Origin: Branchiostoma floridae
Taxonomy: Eukaryota; Chordata; Leptocardii; Amphioxiformes; Branchiostomatidae
Assembly (NCBI RefSeq): GCF_000003815.2
Contig: NC_049981.1
Location: 18,089,041-18,153,040 of the forward strand
Reading direction: 5' to 3'
Length of the DNA stretch: 64,000 nucleotides
Part shown: positions 15,391 to 53,225 of the stretch, one piece after another
Layout of the letters: the number at the start of each line of letters is the position of its first letter
How positions within the stretch are numbered: the stretch's first letter is position 1
Made by a program: the position numbers and the translations under genes
The notes under the pieces: generated by a model
Databases searched by the model: none
Told to the model about the DNA's origin: nothing
The model's input: only the letters and a program-made list of their open reading frames with translations

Positions 15391-18300
15391 CTATGACTCC
15401 ATTCCAGCTTCTGTTAATATGCTAGCTGCTGATTGGATGATGAACGTTATGACTGACAGGCGTTTGTTGATGGCATCCAAACGTTGTTCAGGATTCATGA
15501 TGCTGTCATCCAGGATGGCGTCGGTCAGACTTGGGAAGGCAGCGGATGAGGAGTTGAACCTGCTGAATCCTGCCGCAACATGCCTGCATGGGGTCATGCA
15601 GGGAAGGCAGTCATGTTTAGAATCACACCAGAACATCTCACCAGAGAGCACAAACTTACATGTTCATCATTTCTTTCCAAGCTAAAAAGCTATCTACCAC
15701 CCAAAGTCATGACCATAACCTGTCCAGAACAGGAGATGCAGAAAAAGAAATTCTGCTGCAGTACCAAGGAAAGCTGCCATGTGGCCAAAAATCTTAAGAC
15801 TTAAACTACATACCAAATTCATGAAATCCACTGATAGCTTCTTGCTTTATGCTGTTCAACCACACATATGTACAAAAATACAAACACAATGTATACCTGG
15901 CATCAAAGCACATTCAAGAATCATCAGTGACATTGTGGACTTGGGGTGCTCTCCTGACTCAGAGTCAAAAGGTGTTTCGTCCAATGTTGGGCCCTTGGGA
16001 AAGGCACCACTCATTTCTTTTCTCAACTTAGTTAAGCACCTTAATGTACTGTTATGCCTTGATGGTGTTTACTAGTTATATAACATGAATGGTTCTGTTA
16101 CATTACATGTATAATGTTACATGACTAACATACCAGAGGAAGGGTGGTCCTGGCAGGCCTAGTGGGTCAATGAATGCTCTCTCCAGGTACAGTAACTTGT
16201 CGTTTAGAGCACGGACATCCAGGGGACTGGAACGAAAACATGATCAATGATAGTTCACCTATATCGGTGGGGTAGCCTATAGTGTTGTTTTTTTTATATC
16301 AAATTGATGGATGGTGGTTTCAAATTGCAATATTTTTTTAACATTTCATTTTCCACTTGATGTCCCTAAATACTACTCTCCAAGCAGAGGTTAGGCTCCG
16401 GCTGTTTTTAACGGTTTTTTAGTCGTTTTTATCGGGCTTTCTATTTTGTCATTTTTGTTGAAGTACGCCAGCCAAACCTGTTTTTAAAGGCGATGGATAC
16501 ACTAGTTACCCCAGGGATAAAGGTAAACTAGCGTTACAGACATATTAATCCCTTCAGATGGTTTTAAAACGGATGTTAATTCGTAGTGTTTTGAGTGGCA
16601 TCTTTCATTCTTTTCCAAAGAATAAATTGCCAGAATAACTTGAACACTGAGGTATGAAATTTACAGCTGTTGTTTTTTTAGTTTCATATCATATCCTAAA
16701 CCAGAAACTACAGTCAAATGCAACCAACTTCAGTTTGTTGACATCTCCAATCTTCCTCTCCAATCTCACTGCAGCAGAAGTGAAGTTGGTGACTGCTGAT
16801 TCAAGATATTCTATCAGAAAAAGAAGGCAAGATGATAAAATGTGTTTTTACAAGTACACATCTTTAAGATACATATTTCTTTTAATAAAACCATGCTAGA
16901 CTTAAAAGTAAACACCCAAAACCTTCCTTACCAAGGGAAACACCTTGTGCCGTCAGCACCTCCCCATGTTCTAACTGCACACCTGTCAGATAGGCCTGCA
17001 TCTTGTCCGCAAACGACAGGAGGTCAAAGGGTAGGATCATGGAATCAGAGAGGACGCGCACTGTTTCTATGGCGACCCGAGCCACTGCTTGGTGAGCCTT
17101 AAACTCAGGGTCAATAAACCGTTTGACATAATCGAAGGTATCGAAGGCAGTGTGGTAGGCGGGATAGATGGGCACTGGCTGGACACCTGGTTTCTCCTGG
17201 ATACAAATAAAGCATTTACAGTGTTTGTTAACACACATTAGGTTGTAATTCTCCTACAAACAGCCTCGTCCCCAGCCTACGTGTTAGTTACATTATGGAG
17301 GCTCTGATAAACCAAGCTGAGATTTCCAGTTGTGTTGGCATGGCATCTCACAAGCTGTCAGCAAATCAGAATCTGATTTAACTAAAAAAACATTTATTAA
17401 GCAATTCTCTGATTGGCTGGCAGCTGGTTGGAAGCCACGCCCACAAAAGAGGATACCTCAGCCCAGTTTTGAGCCTCCCCAAGGTAGATTGTATTAGCTA
17501 CAGATGAGACTGTACATTATTGGGGAATGTAGATTATACAAATGCATAAGGCCTTGTTGATGCGATTGTCTGAGTGATATCCTCTCTAAGCACCAAAATT
17601 GACGCAAGCATGCGGAAGAAAAAAAATTGGCAAAAAAAGTTGCCTTCATTATGAAACCTAAATCGTCTGGAAGTGTGAAGAAATGACTTAAAACACAGAG
17701 TATGGTAAACGTAACAGTAGATTCTTCAGTTTTGCTCTTCCACATCTTTGACTTTGGAACTAACTTTGGCAATCAATATCCATTTTCCAGTATTTTTTTG
17801 CCTGTTACAGCACATAAGTGCTCATTTTGGAGCTGCTTTGTACAATTTAACGTTACAGTATGGTTAAAAACTTTTTTATTATATAGTCGAATCAACATGG
17901 CCTAAATGTGATATCCCATCTGAAACAACTCTATCTCTTGCTCTCTGTGCTATTCTGACAGAAATCTGGGGATATCAAGTGAGTACTCACACGATTTTGA
18001 ACAAACATGAGATCAACAGATGGAATCCCAAGTCGATGGTAGAACACGACATAATCACTACCACGGCCCATTTCAAGGAACCTGAAAAGAAAAGAAAGTA
18101 AATTAAACCTAAATTCAAAAGGTCGTGGGTAATTTGGATAGGATAGCCTCTATGTGTGGTACGTGGATGGTGTTCAACACCAATGACAGGTTTGTGTATT
18201 CGTTTTGTGGTGTTCAGATAAAGTGGACTAGGGACATGTTTGTTTACCTGTGTGTAGATGGGGTTTGCCACCAAGGATATGTGGTGGATGGCATTCAGCA

Positions 18301-21300
18301 CCAAGGACAGGTGCGATAATACTATTTTTTGTGTATATGATGTCCATCACCCAGGACAGGTGTGTTAACCAGTATGCAAATGCCATTCAGCACCGAAGAT
18401 GTGTGTGCTTATTTATGTAGGTGGAATTCAGCACCAAGGACAGGTGTGTTAACCTGTGTATGGATGGTGTTTGGCATCAGGGACAAGTATGTTTATATAT
18501 ATGTGTGTGTGGATGGTGTTAAGCACCAAGGATATGTGTTTTATCTGTGTATGGATGGTGTTCAGACAGGCATGTTTAGCTGTGTGTGAACGGTGGTCGG
18601 CATTAAGGACAAATATGTGTCTATTTGTGTTGGGATGGTGTTCAGCACCAAGGTCAGGAGCGTTCATTTGTGTGTGGATGGTGTTCAGCCTGAGGGCTCG
18701 GAGCATTTATTTGTGAATGGCATTCAGTACTTTTACTTCAGTATTTTAAATGTGTGTGGATGGCATTCAGCGTCAAGGACATATGCGTTTATTTGTGTGT
18801 GACTGCCATTCAGCACTGTTTTATTAAGGAATCTCATCTGTATTGGTAGTAATCATTGTGCAATGCTTAAGTTTCTTCCAACAGGTATAAACGGATCAAA
18901 TTTTCAACTGTCGTCTTCTTATATTGATCCTGAAGAAGGCAACAGTGGTCGTTGAAAATTTGGATCAGTGTATACCTTTGTTTTGGAAGAAAGTTGAGCA
19001 TTATACTATAAAACAGACGTGTTTATCTGAGTGTGGATAGCGTTCAGCACTAAGGACAGATCCTACCATATGGCACTGTAAGTACTATTTCTACCATATA
19101 CCCTGTAAGTACTATTTCTGACACGTTACCGCGGAGTTTCAGCTGGTTGTCCATTGACGTTTGGTGTGTTTTCAACCATAGTCTCGTACAAGCTTTTCTC
19201 AAGGCCCGCCCTCTTCATGCGAGACTTTCTGTTTCCCGCATCTGACACGAGACTCCTTTCATGAGATGGTACCTGAGGCACATATAAAAGACTTTTGCGT
19301 TTTTTCAAGTCCATGTGAGTGCGTATTGATTTGTTTGGGGGTTCGGGTAAAGTTTGCAGAAAAGACGTTGCATTTTACCTGTACCAGCTTATTTATGAAA
19401 CGGACAAAAAATGATTGTTTGGCCGGAAACTTTACCTAAGACCCAAACCTGTAAATATGAAAGTCATACGGACTTGAATATATGCACAATTATTAACGGG
19501 GCCTTCAGACAAAATGCTTCCATAAACAAACGTTTTCAGTTCAGAAACAGGACGAAAGTGTCAATCCACAAGCACAAGTATTATTACTGTGTAAGAAATG
19601 GTCACGCGAACGTCCAGGACACATTAGTTTGGCATTTGCCACGTGTCATAATCAATTGAAAAGAAATGGAGACATGAGTTACATGATCATTGTGAACATC
19701 AATTGTCGACAACAAACAGGACATGAAATGTTACCTTCTTCGTAGCATCAAAGATGGCTGTCTGCAAGAGCTTGCTACCGCGCACCCGCATGGTATCATT
19801 TGCTGGAAAGAGACACACTTTAAGCTTTGTATCAATATGTTGTTGTGCCTTGTAGTGCCTTAGGTGGCACATAGGTCAGCAAGCCTCTTTGATGTTTCTT
19901 GATATATTTTACAGGGGGAGCATGCTGCACCCTCACCTTTGAACGCACCTCCTCGAACACGGGATCCCCATTTTACGCGTCTTTGGAAAGTTAGGCGTAG
20001 CCCCAACCAAGATACCCTGTCTCCGCGACTCGAACCAGGCCTCCCAATTACCAATTAGTTGGAAACAGGAGCACAACTTTGAGAGCCGTCAACATTTGTG
20101 CCACAAGGACATCTCTGCATCAAATATGACTGTCTTTGAAATTCCTTTGATATGTTCTTTACACCTATTTCGTTAGGTATACAATTTTGAAAATATACGT
20201 ATATCTGCATGTGAGCAATTCTGTACTTTGTTCACTCACTTCTAGCACAGATAAAAACAGCTATTTTAGCAGAGTTTCTGTGCTTTGCTGTGAAAATTTT
20301 AAAACGCTCAAAAGTTTTGTTCATTCTGTTGTTGTGTGGATAAAAACACACTTATAGAATGTTTTACATACCCATAACTGCTATATCCACGTTAATGTAG
20401 GCAACAGCTCTTTGTGTCAAGGTCTTGACATACTCCTGAAATGACAAAAACGTAACGTTAGCAAGGCAAAATATTTTTGTCTTTGTCGCACGTCGCTTTA
20501 ATGCATAGAATCTAACGTTATATGAAAGAAACCTATGTTGAATTCCTTGATGAAGGATAGACGTCCAGGTAAACAATTGTTGAAGGCAATAATCGATATC
20601 TGCAACTGGATAAGGTGTTTAATTATCTCAGGACATTTCGACTGACATCAATCACTCTTCTATGTTGAATACGGGTCTGTACTAAATAATATGATACTAA
20701 GAAAGCTATAAGGAGATTACGTTGACAATACACAATTATTGAGTTCTAAGAACCACAAGAGATGAAATGGCGTACTTCTGCCCATTCAGTTGACCCTATC
20801 AAACCGAATTCCTCCGAACCCCAACTGCCAAATACTATGGTCCTCTTCGGTCTCCAACTTCCTACAATAAATGGATAGTGACAAAGAAAATTGTTGCTTG
20901 AATCAAAAGAAAAAGAAGACTAACACAAAGACATAGCACTAATTGCCACACAAATGATCGCACTAACGTTACCTTACGCAGGTTATGTACCTCAACCGAG
21001 CGCTCATTGAATAGCTCCCATAATAAAACACAGCAGCCGGTTCAGAACCTGGCACAGCAACTTTTAAAAATTATCTTTTTTTTTCTAGAAGCAGACTTCT
21101 ATGTTCATTGAACAAACTTTTACAAAAGGAATTGCATAAACTGCTTACTAAAATTTCTACAACAACGGCGGAAAGACATACCAGACTTGACGAGTGCGCC
21201 AAGGACCCGTATGATCTCTAGCATACAGGCGGTGCCAGAGGTCGGGTCCACCGCCCCATACACCCAGCCGTCACGGTGATTTCCGTACAGAACGTAACGA

Positions 21301-24300
21301 TCTAAAAGAGATTCGCAATAGACATATCCTTTTTAACTGAAGCCAGTTAATGTTAACACGGAATAGTTTCATTTTTATACTGTTATCATTGAGGCGGCCG
21401 ACTACTCTCTCTTTGTAGCCAGGAGCTGAATTGTGAGGAACTTACAGAAACCGCAAGGGCCTGTAGCGGCTCTCGTTCGGCGCTTTAACTCCGAAAACCA
21501 GTAATTGCCCATGGGCGGCCATAGGACTGTCGGTTTTGAAACTCGAGTGTTTTCGATATATGTGGTGGGTTCTTGACGGTGAAGCTGTCAGCCATCGGAT
21601 CTTCGCCATGGTTGAATAAAACTCTTGGCTGTGTAAAACAGATTTCATTATTCATTAGTTCGAGATCACTTTCAGAAGAACCCCTGAGCGGAAAGGATGA
21701 CCTAGCCTTACCCGGTTCCACACTACCCCTGATGGTGCCGATGACGTTGTAGGTTCTCCTCAGAACGTTTTGATTGGTCACTTTCAAATGCACCTTCCTG
21801 TGGTTAAAACAGCAGGTATGTACGACATAAGATAATTTTCAAAGAAAATTCCATAGCTATACAGTAAGGTATGCATTTATAACTTTCGAACGTTGACAGA
21901 TTCTCTCAGTAGAAGATCACATTTCGAAATCATGTTTCCCGCCTTAGTTACAGTTTTAGTGACGAGTAAGAGAGAAAGACAGGGATACTAATGAACACAC
22001 GCACACCACAACCAACCTGTTAGCGTACGGTCCCACAAAGCCGGGTCCTACCGAGTAGTTAAACCCAAGCCCGCCCTGCCAGTCACTTGGAGCCGCTGGG
22101 CCGGACAGGTGTCTGTCAAAAATACAAGTGAAAGGGATCTCAAGAACTCAAGAAAGAGGTGAGATAATCTTTCCACTTGTCGTGAAGACAGATGTTGTGG
22201 AAAGGTTCATTGTTCCGATGAAATTCCCCTTCGACAAGTAAGGTTACAATGACTAGTGGACCAAGCCCAATGGGTCCCTTTCCAGTAGCATGCATGCGGA
22301 GAAACACATACATCCCCAGCTGCCTCTACTTTGCTCCATAACTGATTTTATCACCAATCGAAATCTTTGTAGTGATCACCTCATGAGTGTGGCAGCATCC
22401 TCCCATCCTATTGGCTGAGTGGGGATTGACGCCAGCCCAGTTGCTGTGATGTTGTTGATGTCTGTGCGGTAGGCGTATTCTGTGCACAAGTGTACAGGCT
22501 TTATACACGGGAAGGTATACAAACTAGAAGTTCTGCCACAATAGAAAGCCGTTAGGAGGCCCGTTATGAGAGTTGACCTTCATTTGCCTGTACCCTACCA
22601 ACTTACCAATTGTAATAATGATCTATCGGCAGCTTCTCGACTTATACCATTCACACAAACACACACACACACACACACACATACATACATACGCAAAGAC
22701 AGGTCTATCAAATGCTTGGAATGATTGATGTTTAGTACCAGGATGTTTATTACTTGTGTGTGGATGGCGTTTAGCACCAAGGACAGGTGTACGTTGACGG
22801 GTGGTGTTAAGAACTAGGGACAAGTGTGTTCAGCACCAAGGACAGGTGTGTTTGTGGGTGGGTGGTGTTCAGCACCAAGGACAGCAGTGTTACCTGTGTG
22901 TGGATGATGCGCAGCACCATTGATCACAAGTTCGATGTATGATGAATCAAAGATGAACCCTAATTTATAACACAAAATTGGACTGACATACATTTCGACT
23001 GTCTAACTCTGTCAAGAAGAAAATGGGAAAGTCTGATTATTGTGTTTAGAATTACAGTGCAATTTTGGTCCGGAATCTCTTCTACCTATACAGATGGAGT
23101 TCGATCACCCCAGTTTGTGCGGTAACCTATACCCGTTCTTTTAAAAGCATGGTTAGGACGGTGGTTTGAAACCACCGTCCTAACCTTGCTTTTAAAAGAA
23201 CGTATGTTTTTCAAACTGTTAAAGCTTGAAACCACCGTCCGTCAACTTAATATCCCTAAATACCGTTTTTTTTTTAACAACGGATATAGGTTACCCCGCG
23301 GAGGATTGTGAAATAGCGTTACCCTTTGCCGGGTATCCTGGTGTCAAGAGGTCACCGTAATCGCCGTTGAGGGAGCCGCGTTGCACGCCGGATCCGGAGA
23401 GAAACCACGTTTCCGGGTAGTTGGGTCCGTCAGGGTTGCCATAGTCTCCCGGGTCGGAGTACACGATGACGCCCAGCGCGCCAAACTTTTCCGCGTTCAC
23501 AGCCTGAGGAAAGTGAAAGTGATGTCGATCCAAATTAGCTCACCGAACAATCGTTCACTGGTCGTCGTGACAGAGAAGGCATGTGCTATGCACAGTATTT
23601 ACAGGTTCATTGTGGTGGAGAAATTTATTTTGATTCATCATTTTGATAAATGCGTAAACTTTACACTTTCCCATTGAAAAGAATAATCAGACAAAATCTG
23701 TGGCTTGATAGGTTGAAACATCATGCAGCAAATGTAGTGCGATGCATGTTCTTTGAAAAAAAAAGCTTTGGTCAGATTCCCTCAAAGTTATGCGACAACG
23801 TAAGGCTGTCATGAGGTCACCTTGTCCCCACGACCGACGGCTCCGTATTTCACGATGACGATTTTTCCCGCCAAGTCCACACCCTGGTCCACTAGATACT
23901 GGAAATCTTCCATAGAGCCGTGATTGGCGAATACCAGGTCACCCTATGGGGAAAAATAAAAAGTTGTCCCTGGAAGTCAATTGAATTATGAAAACTAATG
24001 CCATCAAAAAAGGCCACAGTGAGTTCATTATATGGATGACATTCTCTGGGCACTCAAACATAGATGCTGCGTTGGAAGAAAAAAGCAACTGGGCCAAAAA
24101 AAAGTTGCGTTCATTATGAAATCTAAGATCTCATACCAATTCGTACGATCTAAAAGGGTATTATAGCACCACACACCACAGTGACAGTGAAGTTCGTGCC
24201 ACGCTAGCTTTTACGTATAAATTTTACGTAGTGTTTAAGATTTTGTCGCATTATTTTTTTTTTACTCGGGGTCTCGGATAAATACTGTATGGTGCGAACT

Positions 24301-27300
24301 TACCTCCGCCTCTCCTGGTGGGGAGTAGGCACTGTAATACGTGACGGCATCAGGGTCATTCTCAAACCCCTCCTCTATCCTCCTGCCGGTGAAAACTACC
24401 GTCCCGTTTGCTGCTACCATAGTAACGGTGTTCGGAGTTGTTGGATAAGACAAGGCGACGTCATAGGGCGTCAACATCACGTGATCCAACCCATCAGCCA
24501 ACCACCTGTCCCGGATGTATTGGGCGCCTTGAAGGTCAGATGCAGTACCGGCGAGACGCGTCGTCTGAGTGAGAAGCCTTAAAAACGAAAAAAAAAGAGT
24601 CCGTAGGACACAATTCCCAGCAATTACCAGCAAGGTTTTTTTTACACAGCACCTTGCGGCTACGCCACCTCACGATAAGGACTAGAAGTGTTCCTTGCAC
24701 CAGATGATGACCAAATAAAAAACGTAGAAATGCAAAATAAAGACAAGTGACCGTAGGTAACATACTCTGGGACGTAATTATGGTGTCTACGTCGGTTGTG
24801 CTGTCTTCTGTGGTGTTTATATCGCATATAGGACACATCACATCGACTTATACCAAAAACTTAGTTAAATGCTACCGTACCTATTACTCCCAAATATAAA
24901 ACACAATCCGGTAGGCATCAACAGCAAAATCACCATCTCAAAAGAATAACACGAAATGTAAAATTGAAATATTCAAAATTGTCAGGAATACCCCTAAACA
25001 GTTGTTCCGCGACGTCAGATGTTGTTGTTACACATAATACGACGAACATCTGTTCAATTTCATCATTCTGTTACTTTCGCCGCATCAGTTACAACTATAT
25101 ATATGTTACTACGCCGACGAAACACTGATAACCATAGAACAGCCAACAACACGCTCAAAGCGGCAGAGGGATTCACGTGTCTCTACCGCGACAGCTGTTC
25201 TTGCATCGGACAACACATAACCCGCCCTAGCTATCTGCTTGGAGATAAGCTGATTACCAAACGCCGAAACCACATTGCCTGTTTCATAATACCGAAAATA
25301 TAGGGGCGATTTCTGAAATTATTACATCGATTATAACAACAGCTACAGCAAAAAAAGAACGTGCATTATCGCGCAACTGAGTACAGACAACATGCCAAAC
25401 CACATACGAATGCAACAAACGGAACATCTATTAGAGATATACAGTAACGTTAGGTACGAACACTCAAGACATAGACCGATTACAATACTCTGTCGACGGA
25501 GGTTACCCTCCAATCACAGAGTAAAAAGGCAAACATTTGACAGAATTCAGTGACTTTCTCATTAGACGAGCCAATAATTGCTATTCTCTCATTGGTTAAA
25601 CAACTAACTTGTGATGGACAATCTGGATTGGACTACGTATTGTATGCAGGGCATGGAGTCAACTCGTGGGGATCCCGCCCTTTCTAAACATACTTAACCA
25701 CTTTATTGTTCAATGGAAAATTTGAACATTTCAAAACAATCCACACAAACTTGTTTGCATTTTTGCGTCATTTGGATGTTTAGCAAATACTTGAGCAAGG
25801 CTCAGATTAGATTGGAATAACAAGTAGCCTGGTAAGTGGTAACCATACCATCGGGAGGTCCCGGTATTGCTACGGTGCTGGGAACGCTACCCTACCCCCA
25901 TGCCCGTTAATACCGCACGCCTATGAATTTTTAAGGTTTTAAACCTCCCCATACGTTTGCACTGGAAACACCGAGACAATTTCAGCACACTGCCGAGAAG
26001 TGCGTGAGGTGTGCAGATATCTTACACTCGGGGTATCTTACAGAAATATGGTTCGGGGTCGAAAAGGATCAAACATCATGGGATGGCCTGGGCGCCATTC
26101 TATGTACTACCGGCTATCTACTACCGCCGCGCTCCCATACTCGCTGCTATACTAGAGGTTAGGCTCTTTTATGGACGTCTTTTAGGCCTTTCTATCTGGA
26201 TTTCTATTATGTAAGGTTTTCTTTCAGTCCGACAGACCTCTGCTTGGAGTAAGAGAGTAGCTCGCTCTCTCAAAAAAGAGACGTGTATGGAAGGGGGTGA
26301 GTATGGTAGCCACCGTAGCCGGGAGCCCAGTGTTGTTAGCTTCAATGGTCCGCTCCGGAAGGGCTCCGGAGAGCAGACTAAGGCTGGACTCCAGGCTACG
26401 AGTATGGGAGTAGTAACTACGCATGTGTATTATAGCACCCAGGTTATGACAAACAGACAACCCTAAGAAAGCCAAAGACGAGAGAGGGGGTTAAAAAGGT
26501 TATTCAAGCGGGTTTTTCTCATGCAAGGTCTGGAGTACGCTTGATGAAAATCACCTGTGGTCTCCAATGTTTGAGTCCAAGACCAAACCTGTTTTTGTTT
26601 TAAAACCTGTCTTCACGCCGAAAGTTCTGAAAATCAAGATCTTGATCTTGGCCTGTCGTAAGGCCACAGCAAGTAAATTTTGTAGATGCCATCAATGCGC
26701 GTATATTAATATTGGCTTTCGCTTGATTTCAAAAAAGGGGCATGAAATGTCCTTTCCCCCAAGATGGTCAATATGACAAGAAACACGTAAAAATAGGAAC
26801 ATGTGTTGTGTGGTAGCTTTGAGTATACTTGTTAAAGTTACACTAGTGTGGTAGCCTTGAGTGTAGTTGTAGTGCTACAAGGCCACTTTCTGCATTTAAA
26901 TCATCAGGTTCTTGAATACAGGAATAAAAGACTTGTTGGCTGTGATAAGATGTCTTGATCTAAAAATTTAAGCATCTTGCCATTTGTGTGAAAGGAATAC
27001 CACACATAAGATTTACCTGTTTTGGCCAAATTGCGATTTTTGACGTCAGTGTGCCAAAGCATTGCGCATAGAATGTTATGCATAAACAAATACTTTCAAC
27101 TTGGTTAAGGCGCTTACACGACTTTACCTGGCGATGACGCGCATCGAGCCTCTTGGCTAATCTGTCAGTGTGCCAAAAATCACGATTTGGTGCACCAAAG
27201 TCATCATGTATGTGACAACATTTTCCACCAAGAGCCATAAAAAGCTTTATTCAAGGCCCCCATTCCACTAGACGGCGATCGTGTTGCGATCTCGCTAAGT

Positions 27301-28266
27301 ACTACCTACTGTGTTGAATTTGCGCGACCCTTGATGATTGGAATATCGTGCAAAATGTAAAAGTAGGCTCTAGGACTGAAAACACTAAAAAAACCATCCA
27401 AATCGAAAAAAAATCGTTTTTTTTTTATCAATTGGATTCGCTGAGCGCTCGGTCAAATCACAGGGCGGTCGCAGCGAGGTCATCAGCCTAGTGGTAGTGG
27501 AGGCGTGATTGAAGAACATTCAAGTATGAGTAAGCATCAGCTTCAGCATCAGCATCAGCTTCTGTCTGTTTTCCGCAAAGGCGTTCGAGGTTGTCGGTAA
27601 AGATCGGTAGTGTTTTGTATATATAAACAGTGAATATTACTTTCAACAGTGCTGAACTGCACGGGCAGACTGTTTTCTGAGCAGTAATCCGACAACGTTC
27701 TGAGGTTGTTAGCGTTAGCTCACCTTTATTCGCGGGTATATCCGAAGTATTTTAAGAAATGGGGTATTTAGGATTATCAAGTCAACGGACGGCGGTCTCA
27801 TACTGCTGTATTTTGAAAATATTACCAGAAACCACCGTTCGTCGACTTGATATCCATCCTCTGAAATATGTTGTAAACAATACCTATAAACAACGGATAT
27901 AGGTCACCTCGCGGATGAACGTGAAATGGCGTTATATTCAGCTAATATAAAGTAACTATATAGGCACTCTTATGCACAAGTTGTAAGTATAGGTCTAGTA
28001 TACCGGAGGTTTTCCTCTATATTGGCGGCGCTGATGTCGTCTATGAGGCGTTGACTGACCCAGGCTGGTCCTTCATGGGTCAACATGTACTCCCAGCTAT
28101 CCGTGGGGAGGGCGGTGCCACCTCGGGAAAAATACCCAATCAAAACTCCCAAACAAACTCCAAGAACGGCTACAAGCCCCACGGCGGCAAGTTGCTGCCA
28201 TGAAACAGACAGAAACGATCTCTTGTCGCGCTTGTGTTTCCTGTCGTCAAAGGCTATGTCATCCAT
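15391..28266 (-). CDS. NAALADL1: NAALADL1-like M28 carboxypeptidase (type II membrane protein)
   Basis: Exons (high-low): 28266-28004, 24577-24304, 23943-23821, 23503-23323, 22479-22380, 22112-22017, 21797-21712, 21301-21182, 20861-20776, 20435-20372, 19802-19735, 19272-19130, 18081-17991, 17196-16932, 16810-16729, 16226-16134, 15583-15391. All phases match; about 775 residues (human 740). A short basic cytoplasmic tail (KHKRDKR) precedes a membrane segment at about 25-47. A protease-associated region ([19 protein letters not shown]) is inserted in the peptidase domain. Zinc and catalytic residues are present: H383 and D393 ([14 protein letters not shown]), E431/E432 (WGSEEFG), D460 (YINVDI), H580 ([14 protein letters not shown]). 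The last block is closest to NAALADL1 rather than FOLH1. The family cuts C-terminal acidic residues from peptides at the cell surface. Exon 12 is longer and more basic ([10 protein letters not shown]) than the human counterpart, widening the D460-H580 spacing to 120 residues, against 100 in GCPII. Confidence 0.93.
16247..16536. mobile_element. MITE family A, copy 2 (NAALADL1 intron 16)
   Basis: Starts TAGTTCACCTATATC and ends GGTAAACTAGCGTTA. It contains a single arm of the foldback seen complete in copy 5 (TTAGTCGTTTTTATCGGGC). Confidence 0.65.
17575..17906. repeat. Dispersed repeat family B, fragment (NAALADL1 intron 13)
   Basis: Ends in ATCAACATGGCCTAAA and shares with 8011-8320 and 38973-39288 the blocks ACATCTTTGACTTTGGAA and CAGTATGGTTAAAAACTT. 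The left end is not clear. Confidence 0.5.
18230..18800. repeat. Irregular minisatellite, array 1 (NAALADL1 intron 12)
   Basis: Degenerate repeats of GTGTGGATGGTGTTCAGCA followed by CCAAGGACAGGTGTG, with uneven spacing from about 40 to 135 bases. A second array of the same unit is at 22740-22920 in another intron of this gene. Confidence 0.7.
18862..19002. repeat. Short foldback (NAALADL1 intron 12)
   Basis: An imperfect inverted repeat of about 140 bases: AATGCTTAAGTTTCTTCCA on the left and GGAAGAAAGTTGAGCATT on the right, with matching inner blocks (TTTTCAACTGTCG and GTCGTTGAAAATTT). Probably a small MITE. Confidence 0.6.
19860..20055 (-). mobile_element. Possible tRNA-derived SINE (NAALADL1 intron 10)
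   Basis: On the minus strand it contains GGTTCGAGTC, a good RNA polymerase III B box. The 3' part shares GCTTGCTGACCTATGTGCC with about 61942-61960 in the mannosidase gene, so the sequence is dispersed. The A box is not clear. Confidence 0.4.
22655..22920. repeat. (AC)n microsatellite and minisatellite, array 2 (NAALADL1 intron 4)
   Basis: An (AC)n run at 22655-22691 is followed at 22740-22920 by four or five copies of the same GGTGTTCAGCACCAAGGACA unit as in array 1. Confidence 0.7.
23093..23321. mobile_element. MITE family A, copy 3, abutting a NAALADL1 splice donor
   Basis: Right end ...GGATATAGGTTACC...GCGTTA, which stops at 23321 beside NAALADL1 exon 4. It contains a near-perfect 34-base-arm hairpin (23134-23202, centre 23168, one mismatch) made from CGTTCTTTTAAAAGCA and its complement. 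The left terminus is diverged. Confidence 0.7.
24009..24140. repeat. Dispersed repeat family B, fragment (NAALADL1 intron 2)
   Basis: Contains TATATGGATGACATTCTCTG and CATTATGAAATCTAAG, also seen in the other family B copies. Truncated. Confidence 0.4.
25826..26410. mobile_element. Possible DNA element (NAALADL1 intron 1)
   Basis: Bounded by TAGCCTGG (about 25828) and CCAGGCTA (about 26391-26398), a weak 8-base inverted pair. The interior holds GAGGTTAGGCTC and CCTCTGCTTGG, related to the foldback in MITE copy 5. Elsewhere, intron 1 (24578-28003) shows no exon. Confidence 0.35.
26640..26890. repeat. Dispersed repeat family C, copy 1 (NAALADL1 intron 1)
   Basis: Shares with 32430-32655 the ordered blocks AAGGCCACAGCAAG, GATGGTCAA-ATGAC and GTGGTAGCCTTGAGT. 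Non-coding; class unknown. Confidence 0.55.
27708..27935. mobile_element. MITE family A, copy 4 (NAALADL1 intron 1)
   Basis: Starts GCGTTAGCTCACCTTTATTC and ends GGATATAGGTCACCTCGCGG...GGCGTTA. About 228 bases, non-coding. Just upstream (about 27258-27510) is another G/C-rich dispersed sequence, starting CCATTCCACTAGACGGCGAT. Confidence 0.65.
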
Positions 28267-29028
28267 GGCGTCTCACTCTGGGCGACCAAAAAACGCACCC
28301 GGAACCTGTGCAAATTTGTATTCTGTATACAAGAGCCTGCTATGTACCGTTTACTAACCCCTTTCACTCAACACATGTACATGATTTGTGAGGCTAGCAC
28401 TCAGGCGATACTGGGCGGTGGGAAAGGCGTACGGTGGTTTATGCAGATTCGGAAAGAAACAACACACAACATTCGTGACGATCAGTTCCGCCACCGCTCC
28501 TCAGTCCTTCAGGATGTTGATATTTTGACGATATCTATCATCATTCATCACATTTGTTTACGTCACTTTTTGACAACTTCCCACCGTGTAAAATTTCATT
28601 GAAACCGACGGAGACCGTTAAATAACGGTAACGTTACTTCGTTACCCTTCAAGTCGAACTTTGAACAAGTGCAAACATGGCAATGCTTATTACACAATAG
28701 TGGGATTGCTGCCCCTACGGCCGGTGAGGCTATGGGACCGGCGAGGTGAGGTGAGGTGAGGTTGTGGAAAACACAAAATAAGCGAAACTTCGTTTGGAAA
28801 AATCCAAATCAATAGTTTGAAAGCTTTCTCCCTTCTCTGATACCCACTCATCGATCCTGTCAGAGAAGTCGGGCAGTCAGAAATCTGTCGGGCCAATTCC
28901 GCTAGAGGTCGCTCTTTCTCGTTACTATGGTGCATGCGTACATGCTAAGCCTCCCACTTCCGCATTCCATTGGGCAAAACAGCTGTAACTTCGTGTTCTT
29001 GATCAAGGACGTCATATCATTGCACAGG
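28267..29028. promoter_or_regulatory. Divergent intergenic region between NAALADL1 and the EF-hand/death-domain gene
   Basis: 762 bases between opposed start codons. It contains GAGGTGAGGTGAGGTGAGG (28742-28761) and an inverted CCAAT box (CCATTGGGC near 28968) about 60 bases upstream of the plus-strand start. No TATA box seen. Confidence 0.5.
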
Positions 29029-32000
29029 ATGGGTGCTTACGCTAGCAGCTTCCAGGGGGACGCTGGTAGCCTTGTGGGGGAGCTGACAGATCCTAACCAA
29101 CCCAACTGGATCACGGCCCACGCTGAGGCCTGTGCTCGTGAGTTCATTTCATCATACACAATGTCAATTATAACAACATATCTGAAACGGTAAATGCAAT
29201 CTTAAACGGTCCCCTGATTGGTAGGTGAACATGCTACCAAGTGAGCAATAATTTCACCTTTATCCGTGGCATAACCTATATCCGTTGTTTTAAAAACCGA
29301 ACTAGGATATGTCATGTCATCATCAAGTTGATGATCCTACTTTCCAAGGCCAAGCAGAGGTTATCACGTTTGGCTCTGGCTTTTTTTATTTCAACGTCTT
29401 TTTAGTCGTTTTTATCGGGCTTTCTATTTTTTCTTGTATCTTGTACTGTCAAAGCCCGTTTTGACAATACAATACAAGATACAATACAAAATAGAAAGCC
29501 CGATAAAAACGACTAATATACATTTAAATAAAAAAACAGCCAGAGCCTAACCTCTGCTTGGAGAGTAAGATGGTCCCAGGTTTCCAGACTTTGAAAATGT
29601 TTGATTGCAATTTGAAATCACCATCTGTCGACTTGATAACCCTAAATACCGTGTTTGAAAGAAACGGATATAAGATAAAGATGAACTAGCGGTAAATGGG
29701 ATATATAATGATTATCCTAATACCTGTGTCTTATTGTGTCTGTGCTTTAGTGGACATCCCTGAGGTGGAGCGGCTGTGGCAGCGGTTCCAGCAGCTGGGG
29801 TGTGACAGTACCGGGGTGCTGGCTCAGAACCAGGCACTGCAGCTCACTCAGGATGTCTTCATCAAACAGGTGACACTTCACACTACAGGCACATGATGAC
29901 ACCATTTGTGATCTTACTTGCTTGTTACTTTCATCAAGAATGTTATGACTTCTGTTTGTCCTTGGTGTGTCTGTTTATAGAACAGCACATCCTCCCCAAA
30001 ACCCATGACATCAGTTGTGACATGAAATGTCATGTCCCAACTGATATGTTTTTATGAGGCTTTATCAATACATTTGTGTGTAGCCGAGTGCCATCTTTGG
30101 AGTCAGACGCAGTAATGGTATGACTAAGTACACTATGGTGGTAACTAAAAAAGATGGTACCCAGGGAAGTGTCCAAGCTTTCTCCAGTGAGAACCCATCC
30201 CTCCATCCTGGGATGAAAAGTTGCATATTGGGACGGTCACAAATTTTGCCCTGTCTGTTCCAAAAGGCTGAGCAAATGATTAACCGTTAGTAATACATGA
30301 TATTGATGAAAATCTATTTTTGTAAGCTTAAAATGATATTTAACCGTTAAACATATAAACTAACATTGGCTCCCAATGGGTGGGATGAAAAAATTCAATT
30401 TTAAGCTGGCGACAGCCGTGGTTTATTATGTATTGTCTGTTTATCTCCTTACCAGAGCCTACGCCAGGTCCCGCGGGATGAGAATGGAGGGATCACATTC
30501 CAGACGTACTGCAACGCTGCCAAGTGGATGTCCATTGCTGAGGTAGAGGACAAGCTGAGAGGTAGGACACAGGTTAATTTGCACTGTGCCTACTGCGTAA
30601 CACTCTAGATTGATGGCTACTTTGGACAATTTATGAGCATTTATTTCTCATCTATGCTTCTGACTATTGTGCTATCACACAAACTCGAAATGACCGCAAA
30701 CACTCCATTTTCTCCCTACTGAGAAATCAAATCCAAGCAAACTGTAATGCATTAGATTTTACAGTATATACTATTGTAATTCCATTCTGTAGGTGTGTTC
30801 AAACTGTTGAATCGTGGGAAACCTGTGGACAGAAACATCATGAAGAGAATCCTATCCAAGTTGTATGAGGAGGAAAGTGAGGTAAGGCATATGCTTCATA
30901 ATTGGTCAAGAGATCACAAATAAACAAATGTGACAATTTGATATTCTTATAAACCATTTAATTAAGGTAAGTTTACACCAATTAACAGTCAGACCTTTCA
31001 GACAGCATTTGCTGTCTTATGTCAATGATGCTGAGAAAGATCTGTTGATCAGCAGGTTCAAAACTAAAATATATGAATTAATATGTAGATAAATTCTAGA
31101 TGGTCTAACAGAAGCAACGTCAACACAAGGTTAGCTGTTGTTTGAGTACAGGGGCTAATGTTGTCTTGTGGGGTTGGAGGGCAGGATCCAAGTACTGGAA
31201 ATGTCAACACCTATAGACATTCTTACCTGATCTTTTTATCAATGTTTTTGTATTCAATATTGATCAAAGAAAATGTGACTGGTAGCTGATTGTACATGTA
31301 TGTCTGTGTTCAGGAAACCATCACTAGACTGGCAGACATCTTTGTGACCCAGATAGATGCCAAGCAACAGGGTAAAAGATGTGTTCTATTTTGTGTACTT
31401 GTGATTTATTCTTAATCTTTCTCACTCAAGTATACAATAAAAGTTTCTGTACAGTACTGTGGGAGAATTTGGTTCTCCATCACAAAATGCCAGGTTTTAT
31501 TTTACCATTCCAGTCATTAACTTTCTGCAGTAGCCATGGAACAAATAAATTGAATAGGTGTAGCAGCATGCAATATGTTTGGTACCCACGGACCACTGTT
31601 AGAATTACCCATTAAAAGATGCAGGCAGGTAGGCAGGCAGTCTTACAGCTCTGCCATTTCTGACCAATCCCCGTTCCCCCAGGTGAGGTGGACGAGGACC
31701 AGTTTATAGAGTGGGTGAAGACGATGCCGTTTGAAACTGTCAACGCACTTCTGGAGTTCAGCATAATTCCTCCCGAGTTACAGGACACCAGAACCTCCGC
31801 CTCACAGGTCAGTTAGTGGTCAGCTTTATTAAAGGAGTGTATTTGTACTAGAATGTTGTACTCCGAGTTTGCAAACAAAGCCTTCGCCAAATCTCACATT
31901 TAGCATAGGAGATAGTCACATTCATGATGTTTCTGGCTAAAGCAGGTGTCTCAATGAAGCTGCAGCACATTGTCCAAACAATTTGACAGAGCGCTCAATG

Positions 32001-33843
32001 AACTTCATCGATGACAAACAAAACTTCACGTGTATTGTTGTTTCTAGTCATACTTGTACATTTTGCATGTAGTTCAAGGGTAACACAAATCAAATTTAGG
32101 ACACAGCGATGCAGCCAAAGGGCCACAGCTTCCATATTTGAGTGAGTACTGTTTTAGGGTGAGAGTGGCCTTTGAATCTTGTTAGGTGATGACCATTATA
32201 TTGAGTAAAGCATGGGCATTCAGTATAAAAAAAATTAATGTTGTTTAGTTCCTTTTTGTGACTTGATCAGTTTTTGATTGTGACATTAATGTTTTGTTCC
32301 TGTGATGCACATCTACTGTACTGGAGGACAAAGCGGTAAGGCACAATTCTCCTTCTGTAACATGCAAGTATCTGTACCACAGGGAAAAGTCCATCTTCTC
32401 CCTACTGCAAATTGGAATCCCTGCAAACTTGAAGGCTTTTATATTAAGGCCACAGCAAGAAAATTTCATGGATGACATCAGCATACTCATTAATGTTTGC
32501 CAAATTTGGAAACAAAATGTTTCCCCTCAGGAGATGGTCAACATGACGAGAAAGTACCAAAATGGGAATGTGGTAGCCTTGAGTCTATTTGTAAAATACA
32601 CTAGCGAGGGAGCCATGAGTGTAGTTGTAGCTGTAACACTAGCGAGGCATTTTGCTTTGAAATGTGTTTTGTAGCATTGGTATGACAATCATAAATAAGA
32701 TACAACAGTGTCGGTCATATATATACAACGCATCACCCTCGGTCCCAGCCCTCCTGCAGGTAAGATCACCCACCCACCCAATCTGGTCCCCAGTCATGCT
32801 GGTTAGAGTGATATGGAATACACTGTGTTGTATTGTAGCCGTGAGCTTCCGTCCTTTGTTGGAATTTTGCAGGTGGGGATGGAAAAAAAATTGCCCATTC
32901 CATCCTCTGTGACAGACAAAAATGGATATGCAAAACCCTTCTGTAATTTTTCACCCAAACAGATGCCATTGAATGGCTGTCTGGCAATAAAATTTACAGC
33001 TTAAAATGCAGGAAATGGCGTTTGAAAGGGTCTAAATTTCAAAAATTTCGGGACCCAGTTGGAACGGCACACTGTGCCTTCGGCGCTCAATAGGATTTCC
33101 ACTCAAAATCAAGGGGACGGAAAATGATTTCAGGCTGGCTACAACCCTGCTGTGTTGCATTCTATATATACATACAACCTGGATATTCTTTTGCTCAGGC
33201 GACATCACGAGCAAGTGTAGACGAGCTGGCTGTGCCTGTGTCTGAGGAAACCCTACAGCAGGTGGCGTCTAAGGTACACAACAGGGACTGGGTCCTGTTC
33301 GCCAACAAACTGGGCTTCACTCAGAACGACCTGACGGGCATCAGCAAGAAAGTGGGGAAGAACGTCTACCAACAGGTACAATGAATCTGAGATCAAAGTA
33401 ATCAAGCCAGGCCATGTTGATTCCATTATATATGGATGACATCCAGTTACATATCAATTTTCGTCTGTTTTCTAAAATATTTGACCATTCCACTGCAGAA
33501 TGAGTAAATATATGGTTTGAGTTACAAAAATATCAGAAAATGGATACTTAGATACTAATTTTTAAACTTTTTTAATCACATGCTCACACCAAAAATGTCA
33601 TTCGTACAATCAAATCAACATGGCCTAGGGGTAAATTGTTGATAGGAAAATTTTTCAATTTTTATTTGTGAAGATACAGAGGCTAATATCCCATGCAATC
33701 TGACACCTGTTTCAAATCTGCAGGTGTTAGAAATGCTGCATACTTGGCAGAGACGAGAGAGTGATGCTGCGACCTGCCGGGTGTTAGACACGGCCCTGCG
33801 AGACGGGGACTTCATCGATGTCGCCAATGACATCTTCTTTTAG
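29029..33843 (+). CDS. EF-hand (calcineurin-B-like) + death domain protein
   Basis: Eight exons: 29029-29137, 29751-29869, 30456-30561, 30793-30881, 31314-31371, 31683-31807, 33199-33375, 33724-33843; all phases match, 300 residues. The start gives MGAYASSF, an N-myristoylation motif (G2, S6) as in CHP1 and other calcineurin-B-like proteins; an upstream in-frame ATG at 28927 would bury it. Residues about 37-200 look like four EF-hands (IPEVERLWQRFQQLG, VPRDENGGITF, GVFKLLNRGK, QIDAKQQGEVDEDQFIEWV), with loops missing several calcium ligands. Residues about 210-300 form a death domain (LQQVASKV, RDWVLFANKLGFTQNDLTGI, VLEMLHTWQRRESD, CRVLDTALRDGDFIDVAND). Death domains build signalling complexes by like-with-like binding. 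I infer a membrane-tethered adaptor; partner unknown. I recognise no vertebrate orthologue. Confidence 0.88.
29248..29694. mobile_element. MITE family A, copy 5, with nested foldback
   Basis: Outer ends TTTCACCTTTATCCGTGG and GGATATAAGATAAAGATGAA...CGGT. Nested inside (29350-29561) is a long foldback bounded by CCAAGCAGAGGTTA and TAACCTCTGCTTGG, whose arms share TAGTCGTTTTTATCGGGC and TTGTATCTTGTA. It lies in intron 1 of the EF-hand/death-domain gene. Confidence 0.75.
32430..32655. repeat. Dispersed repeat family C, copy 2 (intron 6 of EF-hand/death gene)
   Basis: Ordered blocks shared with 26640-26890. Further along, at about 32998-33130, is the diverged second copy of the repeat at 120-290. 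Confidence 0.5.
33409..33627. repeat. Dispersed repeat family B, copy (intron 7 of EF-hand/death gene)
   Basis: Starts GCCATGTTGATTCCATTATA and ends AATCAACATGGCCTA: clear inverted ends on a copy of about 219 bases that fills most of the intron. Confidence 0.65.
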
Positions 33844-34123
33844 CTGCAAAGCTGTCTTGCGTACAGAGGAAACTTTCCAGTATGCTAACACGTAAAATCT
33901 TGCATGGCAAAAGTAATGTCAGCTTTACAGATGTTAATGTTATACCAGGGCTGTCTTCAGCTTTAATTTTCCAGACATTCCAATTTGTTAAGACAAAAAA
34001 AGATGGTTAAAACAATGTCAGCTTTACAGACATTGTATGTAACGGCTGTGTCAAGCTTTTGATTCTTTTCTTTTTTACCATCACACTCATTACGTTTGTG
34101 AAGATTATACATCCAGGAATATA

Positions 34124-34733
34124 ATGAATAGATGAAAGTTGAATCTCTACTTCTGGATAAATCAAATTTAATTCAGACGTTTCAAACGACCTCCATCGTT
34201 CTTCTTCAGTGAAATAAAACTAAAAGTTTACAACTCTGCGGAATAAGGAATACTTCTTACGTTCTAAATAAACAAAAAAGGTAACGGCTAAGGTGTTCTA
34301 AAGTAAACAAGGTAGGTAACTACAGAGGTGTTCTAAACCAGTGTTCTAAATAAACAAAAAGNNNNNNNNNNNNNNNNNNNNNNNNNNNNNNNNNNNNNNN
34401 NNNNNNNNNNNNNNNNNNNNNNNNNNNNNNNNNNNNNNNNNNNNNNNNNNNNNNNNNNNNNNNNNNNNNNNNNNNNNNNNNNNNNNNNNNNNNNNNNNNN
34501 NNNNNNNNNNNNNNNNAACACTGTTTAGAACACCTCTGTAGTACCTACCTTGTTTACTTTAGAACACCTTAGCCGTTACCTTTTTTGTTTATTTAGAACG
34601 TAAGAAGTATTCCTTATTCCGCAGAGTTGTAAACTTTTAGTTTTATTTCACTGAAGAACGACGGAGGTCGTTTGAAACGTCTGAATTAAATTTGATTTAT
34701 CCAGAAGTAGAGATTCAACTTTCATCTATTCAT
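34124..34733. repeat. Long inverted repeat (foldback) spanning an assembly gap
   Basis: The left arm (34124-about 34346) and right arm (34517-34733) are near-perfect inverse complements over about 215 bases, starting ATGAATAGATGAAAGTTG and ending CAACTTTCATCTATTCAT. 155 Ns (34362-34516) sit at the centre. The inner arm repeats GTTCTAAA-TAAACAA several times, so the gap probably holds more of this. TCACACTCATT lies on both sides. Confidence 0.9.
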
Positions 34734-35481
34734 CACACTCATTGTTTGGATGCCCATGTTCTTAATTTTCATCCATAATGATAATCTAATCTGTCATTTC
34801 AAATCTACAAAAATCCATTTTCATAAACTTTATGTCATGAAGTTCTGATTTTTTTGACAGACGGGTGAAATTTCTGGGATGAAGGGATGGGTCAAGGAGA
34901 CAGCCGTGTTATAGGTACTATATGTGTTGTTTGTTTGTCAATGACTGCAGGAAATGTTCAAGACTAGAGATGAATGTACAAAACTAATCAATTTACCAAT
35001 GAAGATCTATTAGAAGTTGTGAACAGTCTCATTGATAAAAGGTAGTGGATGCTACCTGAAAAGTCTGACCATTCCAAAAATCCAGTTGCTTGAGTTACTG
35101 TTATGTAAACTTCAGGCGTAATGTTGTAAACAATATGTAAGAGAAAGATACATTGTATACCAAGACTTGAAAGAGCTAGACTAAATTTATTTTCTACAAG
35201 ATGAAGTATATTGTCAAATTAATGTTATTTATTCTATTGGGTATTTTGCTGTTCATATGTATTTCCTGTCAAATGCACTATCTATATATATATGTGTTAA
35301 TGCCAAGATGTTTTTTACTTCCATAACCACATGCTTTTACATCTATCTTATTCTATAGATATTCATGACACCTTTGTCCACATGGCCTTATGCTGAAAAT
35401 TTTTATCTGGGTATCTTTCACAACATAGCCTAATGGACTGTCAAATGGAATTCCCTTCATGCTTTCAGCACAGAAAAAATA

Positions 35482-46100: not shown

Positions 46101-49100
46101 CTGAAGACAATCCCATCTGGTTCTCTTCCTCAACAGATGAACTGGACATCCCGCTTCTGCTGTCTGAACCTGAGCATGTAAAACAGAATCTTACACCAAA
46201 ATGGACAGGAGAAAATGTCGGGCAAGACTTGCACCTTGCTTCATTGGGTCGTTGTAACTTTGTTCAGTTTGTTAGTGGAACATACATATAGGTCAGCAAT
46301 TGCAACTTTCCGTGCAGTTTCTGTAGTACGAAGGTGATGCTAGCCCTTCCCCTCTTAATCAAATTAAGAACTCCATTGTGCGTCCCTTCTGAATGATGTT
46401 GACCCTGGAACTTGAACCGGAGTCTCCCCAAGTTAGAACCATGAGCTTAAACATAATAAGGCACTAGCAGTTGAGCCATAGGGACATCTCTGTTTCCTGG
46501 AATCTATTGCCACATCTTTCATTTAAACATTTTGTCAATACTCATTCCCCATGATAAGAAAAACTGACAAACATAACACAATGTAGACCAACTTACCACT
46601 CCTCCCTGTAACTTTCCACCATTCCGTTGGAGATTTGGACACACGTCTGAAAAAAAAAATGATTTTAAAGAACTTTTGGCCCAGTTTTGATTGCTATATG
46701 TACATCATCTGAATACAGTCTGTGAAAATATTCAGAGCCTTTGTAGATTTCAAACATCTTGCTGATTATGAAACTATGGCTGTAATTGGCATGATCTATT
46801 TTATTTATTTTCTAAATACATATATTTGCTTATTGAAGTCCTGTCATTTGGAAAAATTCCATGCTTATATCAGATCATAAATTATGCAATTGACTTTCAC
46901 ATTTACATAATGTACAATTTTTTGTGTAAACCTCTAACTTGTCACAAGTAGGTAACCCCCACCATTTACAACTATTAAATTACGGCACTTTCACATTAAC
47001 TATGCAAATCAAAATCTTATTTGCATAATACAAACTATATTCATATCCTGCAATTGTTTACCTGCAATGAATACTTAATGATATAAAAGCCCCATTATGA
47101 AAAACACTGGACTTATGCAAGTTACGTCATAATTTGCATAATCTGCATGTCATTATGTACATCTCTGTCTAAACTACCTAATAGTATATACTAAATATCA
47201 TGGAAATTTGCTGTTCCTTTGTTTATTTATCTTCTTTTACAAAAATATGCCTGCAGTTCTGGAGCGAGCTGCTAGGGGGCTCAAAACCATCTTGCAAAAT
47301 CTTCTTGCGTCCAAAGCTATCTACCACCAATACATCAAGACCATATCATGTCTAGGACAATAGATACAAAAATTGAAGTTCTGCTGCAGTACCAAGGTCA
47401 CAATACACTGAGTCACCTTGTCCTCTGCATGCTGGATTCTGAGGGCACATTTGACTCAATATCTGGTGTCCTCTGACTACTTGGCCTGGTCTTTTCGGAT
47501 CCATGCTTTGCTGACCTCTGCCGTGTCGGTTGTCTCTTCTTGCTGGTGGCTCTGGTGGGAAGTGTCTCATTGAGACTCTGCTGTTCCTGTTGTTTCTTCC
47601 CAACGCAACTGATGGAACCCGAGTCTGAATCGTCTGCCTGGAAACTTGGACGTCTCTGGCGTTTCTTCTTTCCAGTTGTCATTACCGCACTTGAGTCTGA
47701 CTCGTCAGCCTGAAAACTCTGCTGCGCCTGTCGTTTCTTTCCAACAGCAGTAACAGAACCGGAAACTGAATCTTCTGGCTGGGACCTCTGTCGCCTCTGA
47801 CTTTTCTGCTTCCCTGTTGTTCTAACCGAACTTGAATCTGAGTGTTCTGGCTCAACACAATGTTGTCTCCTCTTCCCAGAAGCTCTGGTAGAACTCAAGG
47901 CTTGAGTATTCTCCTTTCTCTGATGTTTCTTCTTCTCAGAACTTAAGTCTGACTCGTCTGGCTGGAAGCTGGGCCGTCTCTGTCGTTTGTTTTTCTGAGT
48001 TGTTGGAACTGAACTGGAGTCAGAGTCTGCTAGCTCGATACTCTGTCGTTTCTTCCTTCCAGTAGTTCTAACAGAACCTGAATCTGACTCATCTGGCTGG
48101 AAGTCTGCCTGTTTCTGTTGGCTCCTCTTTCTAGTGTTTCTGACAGTGTTGGAGTCTTCTGACTCGATACTCTGTTGTTTCTTCTTTCTGGTAGTTTTAA
48201 GAGAACTCAATTCTGGCTTGTCTGGCTGGAAACTTGTCAGTTTCTGTTGTCTCTTCTTTTTGGTATTTCTGACAGAGCTTGGGACTTCTTGCTGGAGACT
48301 CTGTTGTTTCTTCTTCTCAGTGGTTTTAACAGACTCTGAGTCTGATTGTGCCGTGCTGCTGAGATCTGAACCCCTCTTCTTGTTCTTCTGCTGTGTTGTA
48401 CTCGAGTCCAATTTTGCAGGAGTGTCGTTAGGTGGGGTTAAGGCTTTACCTAGGGTCAGCTTGTCAGCTGAAGAACCTGATAAATACAAATTTGAGAACA
48501 TTGTGAAAACAACTATTTTGAGGTGACAGGTCAAGCTCCTAAGACAGCCATTGAAAAGGCCATGTAAATATATCCATTGGTGTAGAATTGACCCACAAGT
48601 TGAATATAAATAAGCACTTGGCTAGCTGCCAGCTTGTTCAAGATGATTTTTACAATGATCTAATGTGATTCAGGTTACCCGAGCTAAAATCTGCCAACCC
48701 AGCTTTTCAGGGGGAGGGGGATTGAAAGCTAGGATGGGCACAAGTTTTTTTATTTGACATCTGGGCTATGAAAATGTTGTAGAATCATTTTCCAAATCCA
48801 ACACATTCTCCTCATTTCTGTTTCATAGAAAAGTGACATAAACAGACCCACTGAACTTAGGTCCCATATACATTGATTCACACCCAAAATGCACAAGCAG
48901 CGTAATCAACATATGATGTTGAAAATACTAATGTCCTAATGCATTTCAGTTTTCCATCAAACTATCTATGTTGGATGACATCTGCCAAAGTCTAAGAAGT
49001 AAAAGAGAGAGTGTGAGAGTTCCTATCTACCAATCTTATTTCTACGGGATTGTACATGCAAGGCATGAAATACTTTTTTCTGCATACCTGCACTGGTGCA

Positions 49101-52843: not shown

Positions 52844-53225
52844 CTTACCGCCTTTTGAAGTTGACGCTTCTCGCGCCAGGAGATCTCGCGAGAGTTGGAG
52901 TCAATCCTAATATGTATGCACAAGACTAACATATCTTTTTTCAAACAAAAAAAGAAAGCTCATCATCATCAAAATATAACCATATTTAGCCCTCAAAATA
53001 ACTTGTCGACTTTTGGAACGGGCGTCAGCTACGCTCTTGTGATAACTGTCTCATTTTGTGCTCCTTCTCCTTGCCTTGTAACTGTATGCATCCGATTTAT
53101 GTGTGAGCATTATGAAGGTCACAGGTCACCCATCATGCTGTAGTCACATGCCTCATGTTGTACAAGTCGTGACCGATAATTTTTGACCGTAAAGTCTTGG
53201 AGTTTGTACTTTGATCGTGTCCAAC
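52844..53225. promoter_or_regulatory. Bidirectional promoter of CENP-U and alpha-mannosidase
   Basis: 382 bases between opposed start codons. TCTCGCGAGA, the palindromic element bound by BANP in vertebrates and common in bidirectional housekeeping promoters, is perfect at 52884-52893, 41 bases upstream of the CENP-U start. CTTCTCGCGCC lies beside it (52867-52877). No TATA box. Confidence 0.65.

Follow-up and report, generated by a model that had tools for sequence, protein, structure and literature searches.

Gene model and domain content

The 64,000-nucleotide (nt) stretch of the Branchiostoma floridae genome analysed here (the window) carries on its + strand, at 29029-33843, a gene for which the splice model gives 8 exons, GT-AG borders at all introns, no internal stop and a spliced product of 300 codons followed by a TAG stop (Table 1). 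The predicted protein joins an N-terminal half resembling the calcium sensor calcineurin B to a C-terminal death domain, a module through which proteins of cell-death and immune signalling make contact. The gene model is sound and its domain matches are good, and the two halves are very probably encoded by a real single fusion gene, from which we infer one mature transcript. The pairing of calcineurin B with a death domain looks new.

An earlier sequence-only reading had proposed that the halves are fused in phase across 31807-33199, and the gene model bears this out: exon 6 and exon 7 both have phase 0 borders at this junction, and all 300 codons are open. GC content is 0.43-0.61 in the exons (0.58-0.79 at third codon positions, GC3) versus 0.32-0.41 in the introns. 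The least contrast of all is seen at exon 4, whose GC of 0.43 is barely above that of its flanking introns, and the death-domain exons (0.55 and 0.53) do not differ clearly from the EF-hand exons. When the protein was compared with the genome by BLAST (E up to 0.01), it matched its own 8 exons and 22 other places, the latter through the death domain only and at 29-39 % identity. Intron 1 contains an inverted repeat (29382-29536) with 68-base arms that are 82 % complementary and a 19-base spacer, which we interpret as resembling a miniature inverted-repeat transposable element.

Table 1. Exons, selected introns and candidate features of the fusion gene (o/e, observed/expected ratio of CpG)
Feature	Position	Strand	Description	Basis
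CpG-rich stretch	27801-29000		probable promoter shared with the head-to-head, presumably FOLH1-like gene; o/e 0.78-1.20 in 400-base segments	
Candidate in-frame N-terminal extension	28927-29028	+	34 aa; would eliminate the myristoylation signal	
Exon 1	29029-29137	+	residues 1-37, phase 1 out; MGAYASS start, linker	splice model, pattern check, own-exon match
Intron 1	29138-29750	+	phase 1; position and phase of a calcineurin B intron, codon before D-x-x-E	
Exon 2	29751-29869	+	EF-hand 1 region, loop GCDSTGVLAQNQ = residues 53-64	splice model, PDB alignment, pattern check
Exon 3	30456-30561	+	EF-hand 2 region, loop PRDENGGITFQT = residues 82-93	splice model, PDB alignment, pattern check
Intron 3	30562-30792	+	phase 1; position and phase of a calcineurin B intron, codon after KLR	
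Exon 4	30793-30881	+	EF-hand 3 region, shortened loop around LLNRGKPV	splice model, PDB alignment
Exon 5	31314-31371	+	residues 142-161; initial part of EF-hand 4 together with the start of loop DAKQQGEVDEDQ (residues 156-167)	
Exon 6	31683-31807	+	residues 161-202, remaining EF-hand 4 loop and helix, linker	
Candidate read-through end of EF-only isoform	31808-31833	+	Val-Ser-stop, TAG 31814-31816; ATTAAA 31828	
Intron 6 (fusion intron)	31808-33198	+	phase 0; CpG-poor, no CpG-rich stretch	
Exon 7	33199-33375	+	residues 203-261, linker and first half of death domain	splice model, Pfam
Intron 7	33376-33723	+	phase 0; cuts death domain between residues 261 and 262	
Exon 8	33724-33843	+	residues 262-300, second half of death domain, TAG stop	splice model, Pfam

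Residues 219-297 match the Pfam Death family (PF00531) at 44 bits, E 2.4e-11, when the whole protein is searched, and the C-terminal half alone scores 46.9 bits, E 3e-12; both scores lie above the curated cut-off of 22.6 and place the domain in the death domain superfamily by sequence. The death domain that had been read on the last two exons is thus significant, and its refutation by the lack of such a match is excluded. Its nearest solved relatives by sequence are the death domains of TNFR1 (E 1.4e-4), FADD (1.1e-3) and RIPK1 (2.9e-3), and its tryptophan, leucine, isoleucine and Ala-Thr core positions are common to 13 other aligned death domains of the genome. Searching the whole protein against Pfam up to E 10 returned no family other than Death and three that stay below cut-off, EF-hand_7, EF-hand_1 and UBA_6; this search gave no effector domain and, beside the death domain, no death effector domain (DED) of the kind found in FADD-type adaptors.

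For the N-terminal half, the best relatives among Protein Data Bank (PDB) chains searched with phmmer are calcineurin B (5b8i_B, E 4.9e-7; 6tz7_B, 1.2e-6; 1mf8_B, 8.2e-6). The formal top match, 4il1_A (1.3e-7), is a calmodulin/calcineurin construct whose calmodulin part raises its score, and the next relatives are programmed cell death protein 6 and guanylate cyclase activator (2e-4 to 9e-4). The alignment with calcineurin B covers residues 33-174 and with them all four EF hands, and homology extends over the whole four-EF-hand core. The protein has no match to the EF-hand loop pattern and possesses no canonical calcium-binding loop: position 12 is Q, T and Q in loops 1, 2 and 4, with no acidic residue there, loops 1 and 2 have G or P instead of Asp at position 1, and the calcineurin B alignment shows a shortened loop 3. 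A calcineurin-B-like N-terminal half with degenerate loops, as first read from the sequence, is therefore retained.

Probable parentage of the EF-hand half and proposed function

The introns of the fusion gene point to the parent of its N-terminal half. The calcineurin B gene of the B. floridae genome lies at C1:14848919-14851265 and is 90-93 % identical to the calcineurin B query. Four of its introns were seen (loci L067 and L068): one of phase 1 in the codon before D-P-E-E, seen from the acceptor side only, one of phase 1 in the codon after D-F-K, one of phase 1 in the codon after K-L-R, seen from both sides, and one of phase 0 after F-C-E, seen from the donor side. In the fusion gene, intron 1 interrupts the codon preceding D-I-P-E-V-E-R-L and intron 3 the one following K-L-R; both are of phase 1 and both codons align with the corresponding calcineurin B codons. 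Two of the five EF-region introns of the fusion gene thus occupy the same base, in the same phase, as two of the four calcineurin B introns seen. With 5 and 4 introns placed over 411 bases, at least two exact coincidences arise in ~0.08 % of random placements, a probability (~0.0008) that assumes uniform intron placement. As a control, 31 of the 34 genome matches of the calcineurin B query cross the K-L-R site uninterrupted (8 of these 31 contain stop codons); the three exceptions are the two exons of calcineurin B and a single match situated past the site.

Since introns 1 and 3 coincide with calcineurin B introns, the EF half is probably a diverged calcineurin B duplicate, and the source gene of the N-terminal half can now be named with fair confidence. 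The shared introns give the fusion a traceable origin. A BLAST search of the genome with the EF half (up to E 10) returned its own six exons and two places at chance level, among them, at E 7.3, the calcineurin B gene proper; at that sensitivity there is no close paralogue.

From this domain content we propose that the N-terminal two thirds of the 300-residue protein would derive from a calcineurin B duplicate and the C-terminal third would be the death domain. Having lost its canonical calcium-binding loops, the EF half probably retains only its grip on a partner helix. The start MG-A-Y-A-S-S at 29029 fits the N-myristoylation pattern, its ATG having A at -3 and G at +4, and if this is the true start, the N-terminal glycine would be myristoylated and the protein held at the membrane. 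There, the death domain may recruit or block death-domain partners resembling TNFR1, FADD or RIPK1. Because no effector domain was found in Pfam, the protein would serve either as a bridge or as a decoy. We therefore tentatively put forward an adaptor or decoy that carries a death domain, is tethered to the membrane and works independently of calcium; its anchoring, its calcium independence, its partners and the direction of its effect are what we infer. If true, it would provide a direct covalent link from the calcineurin B fold to death-domain signalling, and the protein, if expressed and myristoylated, would be a test case for whether an EF-hand fold is able to regulate death-domain assembly without calcium.

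Alternative explanations

Several observations weigh against a calcineurin-B-derived, membrane-held and calcium-independent fusion protein. In Pfam, EF-hand_7 (PF13499) scores 16.9-18.3 bits, where the cut-off is 30, and EF-hand_1 (PF00036) 13.2-14.6 bits, where it is 25.4, so that of the two family searches suggested as a check in the sequence-only reading, Death succeeds and EF-hand stays under the cut-offs. Three of the five introns in the EF region, and two of the four in calcineurin B, are unshared, and the first shared site is less discriminating, as five other EF-hand matches start at most 2 residues from the site or its edge. Upstream of the proposed start there are in-frame ATGs at 28927 (good context) and 28942 (weak context) that would abolish the predicted myristoylation signal; the MG-x-x-x-S start pattern claimed earlier is present, as a candidate signal. 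Calmodulin, an EF-hand protein, is reported to bind FADD and the death domain of TRADD in trans, which speaks for an EF-hand module acting on a death domain, but its binding to TRADD depends on calcium (PMC4313936), unlike the action proposed here. To the same side belong the low mean CpG of the window, the CpG ratio around exons 7-8 and three features at the edges of intron 6 or within it, all of which concern the number of genes.

There could be two genes, one calcineurin-B-like and ending after exon 6, the other a small death-domain gene (exons 7-8) starting in intron 6. Reading through from exon 6 meets a stop and an ATTAAA (Table 1), and an EF-only form made in this way is possible; the ATG at 33124 begins an in-frame open stretch that leads directly into exon 7; and a 26-codon ATG frame at 32682-32759 ends in a strong donor (CAG/GTAAGA) whose phase suits exon 7. 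However, one good donor is unsurprising among the 76 ATG-to-GT frames of intron 6, which were listed regardless of donor strength, and the ATG at 33124 sits in an interspersed repeat of ~300 bases (32846-33149) that makes up a fifth of the intron and has at least 39 other places at 72-82 % identity; intron 6 as a whole gives 4158 first-look candidates. The phases of exons 6 and 7 match, the exon 7 acceptor is good, and no CpG-rich stretch appears in intron 6 (o/e 0.14-0.46; window mean 0.51). In 400-base segments, the ratio is high upstream of the gene (Table 1), 0.64-0.79 from 28.8 to 29.8 kb and 0.07-0.62 in segments starting at 29.6-33.4 kb, and climbs to 0.65-0.92 from 33.6 kb. Over the gene body it is 0.40, compared with a median of 0.67 over 53 death-domain loci (9/53 at or below 0.40). 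Reported methylation levels in lancelets are 33 % for coding exons, 23 % for introns and 5.8 % for sequence upstream of genes (PMC4284660). The unbroken CpG loss through the linking intron fits one transcribed body, an argument that is weak because the mean of the window is already 0.51 and low CpG is common in it; the kilobase around exons 7-8 stands at 0.59. Two genes are, in our estimate, quite unlikely. We also weighed a cassette exon within intron 6 and rejected it, since the phases do not fit.

The history of the death domain allows another explanation, namely recent exon shuffling, in which a death-domain exon from the expanded family of this genome was copied into an EF-hand gene. The repertoire is large: a Death-family profile search of the genome (513.4 Mb, 431 contigs) gave at least 150 matches above cut-off, with 150 of the 588 first-look candidates scored. 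The fusion intron also holds the interspersed repeat described above. Death is described as the most over-represented domain among the dispensable genes of two lancelets (PMC12373286), and lancelets are reported to acquire novel domain pairs at a rate above 10 per million years, with shuffling that favours 1-1 phase exons (PMC4284660); because of this very high reported rate, a new pair is unsurprising in a lancelet. A rough score was used to pick the best acceptor close to where the domain begins in 53 further death-domain exons; it is of phase 1 in 45, phase 0 in 4 and phase 2 in 4. The score is simple (the acceptors of the fusion gene itself score -0.7 to 7.0), the acceptor picked is in some cases as far as 136 bases upstream, and under a stricter rule (score 6, margin 3) 3/53 qualify, all of phase 1. 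These 53 loci, 13 from searches and 40 chosen from the Death-family list, are among the best single-exon matches, which biases them against split domains, and they include near-duplicates (L007/L008, L018/L020). The death domain of the fusion gene, in contrast, has a phase 0 intron at its entry and a second one within it and does not fall into the class of single phase-1 exons, and all 22 of the listed BLAST relatives are uninterrupted at the point of intron 7 (residues 261/262); the best relatives are just 29-39 % identical. Because of the phase 0 entry, the phase 0 split and the uninterrupted relatives, the domain seems not to be a plain member of the mobile exon class, and an older or separate lineage, or a later intron change, is more likely. 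The simple form of shuffling that the sequence-only reading had drawn from the exon layout is therefore not favoured, and recent shuffling seems unlikely. Much the same doubt attaches, slightly more strongly, to a calcium-sensing switch, in which a non-canonical loop would still let the EF half bind calcium, or some other ion, and the death domain would be freed as calcium rises. Asp is retained at position 3 of loops 1 and 2, Gly at position 6 of loops 1, 2 and 4, and Asp at positions 1 and 9 of loop 4, and the calcium dependence of the calmodulin-TRADD interaction would agree with such a switch; the substitutions at positions 12 and 1 and the shortened loop 3 stand against it. Finally, the gene could be degenerating or non-functional, a drifting calcineurin B duplicate that acquired a death domain, as the degenerate loops and the lack of a paralogue in the BLAST search with the EF half might suggest. 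Against 300 open codons over 8 exons, intact splice sites, a coding-like GC3 and, weakly, the CpG depletion over the gene body, we consider this improbable.

The adaptor or decoy reading can be extended to a calcium-blind pseudo-calcineurin-B death adaptor, in which a permanently membrane-held clamp is combined with a death domain of an old lineage that did not arise by shuffling. Such an adaptor, which may date back to ancestral deuterostomes and have disappeared from vertebrates, would link calcineurin-type helix recognition to TNFR/FADD-type signalling. In this full form it is a rather doubtful proposal.

Neighbouring features and comparison with known systems

Upstream, on the - strand at ~16885-28272, lies a gene head-to-head with the fusion gene, the two having the CpG-rich stretch in common. 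One piece of it matches the PA domain at E 1.6e-4 and 22.2 bits, under the cut-off of 23.9, and by sequence likeness we take it to be FOLH1/NAALADase-like. Just 3' of the fusion gene, at 34117-34740, an assembly gap of 155 N (34362-34516) lies within inverted repeats (122-base arms 98 % and 88-base arms 95 % complementary), either a palindromic element or an assembly artefact. On the + strand at 6526-8657, an SH2-domain piece (21.3 bits against a cut-off of 21) is followed by a further frame that presumably resembles DAPP1 and has no Pfam match. Between them is a minisatellite (6767-7665) of 19-base units in ~48 copies, which lies in a 391-aa open frame, several other frames being open too. 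The - strand at 47416-48621 holds a basic/serine-rich open frame of 402 aa with imperfect repeats of 129-141 bases, a 353-aa piece of which has no Pfam match. An alpha-mannosidase-like gene occupies ~53193-63999 on the + strand, its extent judged from open frames only; a 64-aa piece matches the GH38 N-terminal domain at E 2.5e-22.

No description of an EF-hand/death-domain fusion appeared in the titles and abstract openings returned by full-text searches of mostly open-access literature, the exact phrase included. The words amphioxus, death domain and EF-hand co-occur in PMC9334734 and PMC3039611. Ilborin (PMC8864356) was considered as a precedent and rejected, as it combines a TIM barrel with an EF-hand and its text has no 'death'. 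In the main text of PMC2575513, PMC8195603 and PMC2246300, 'EF-hand' is absent, and so is 'death' in that of PMC4987107, which describes the chordate calcium-signalling toolkit as most diverse in cephalochordates. Closest in lineage are the domain-shuffled immune and apoptosis proteins of lancelets (PMC2575513, PMC3196919), which likewise present new death-fold combinations; those in PMC2575513 draw on TIR, DED, CARD, NACHT, caspase, TNFR and SAM, whereas the fusion protein uses an EF-hand. An EF-hand module in cis with another module is also seen where an EF-hand regulatory domain is joined to a mitochondrial carrier, but there the partner is unrelated to the death domain and the protein is described as calcium-regulated (PMC6283063). 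Calmodulin with FADD and TRADD is an EF-hand protein acting on a death domain, as proposed here; those are separate proteins, whereas the fusion protein has both modules in one chain and its loops are degenerate (PMC4313936).

Two comparisons concern the halves themselves. TNFR1, FADD and RIPK1 have the death domains closest to that of the fusion protein among solved structures, but their receptor, DED and kinase parts are unmatched in it by Pfam, and an N-terminal EF-hand module stands in their place. Calcineurin subunit B (PPP3R) is the best PDB match of the EF half over all four EF hands, and the predicted MG start of the fusion protein is like that of calcineurin B, whose N-terminus is myristoylated. 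The fusion protein differs from it by its degenerate loops, by ~36 residues ahead of EF-hand 1 and by its C-terminal death domain.

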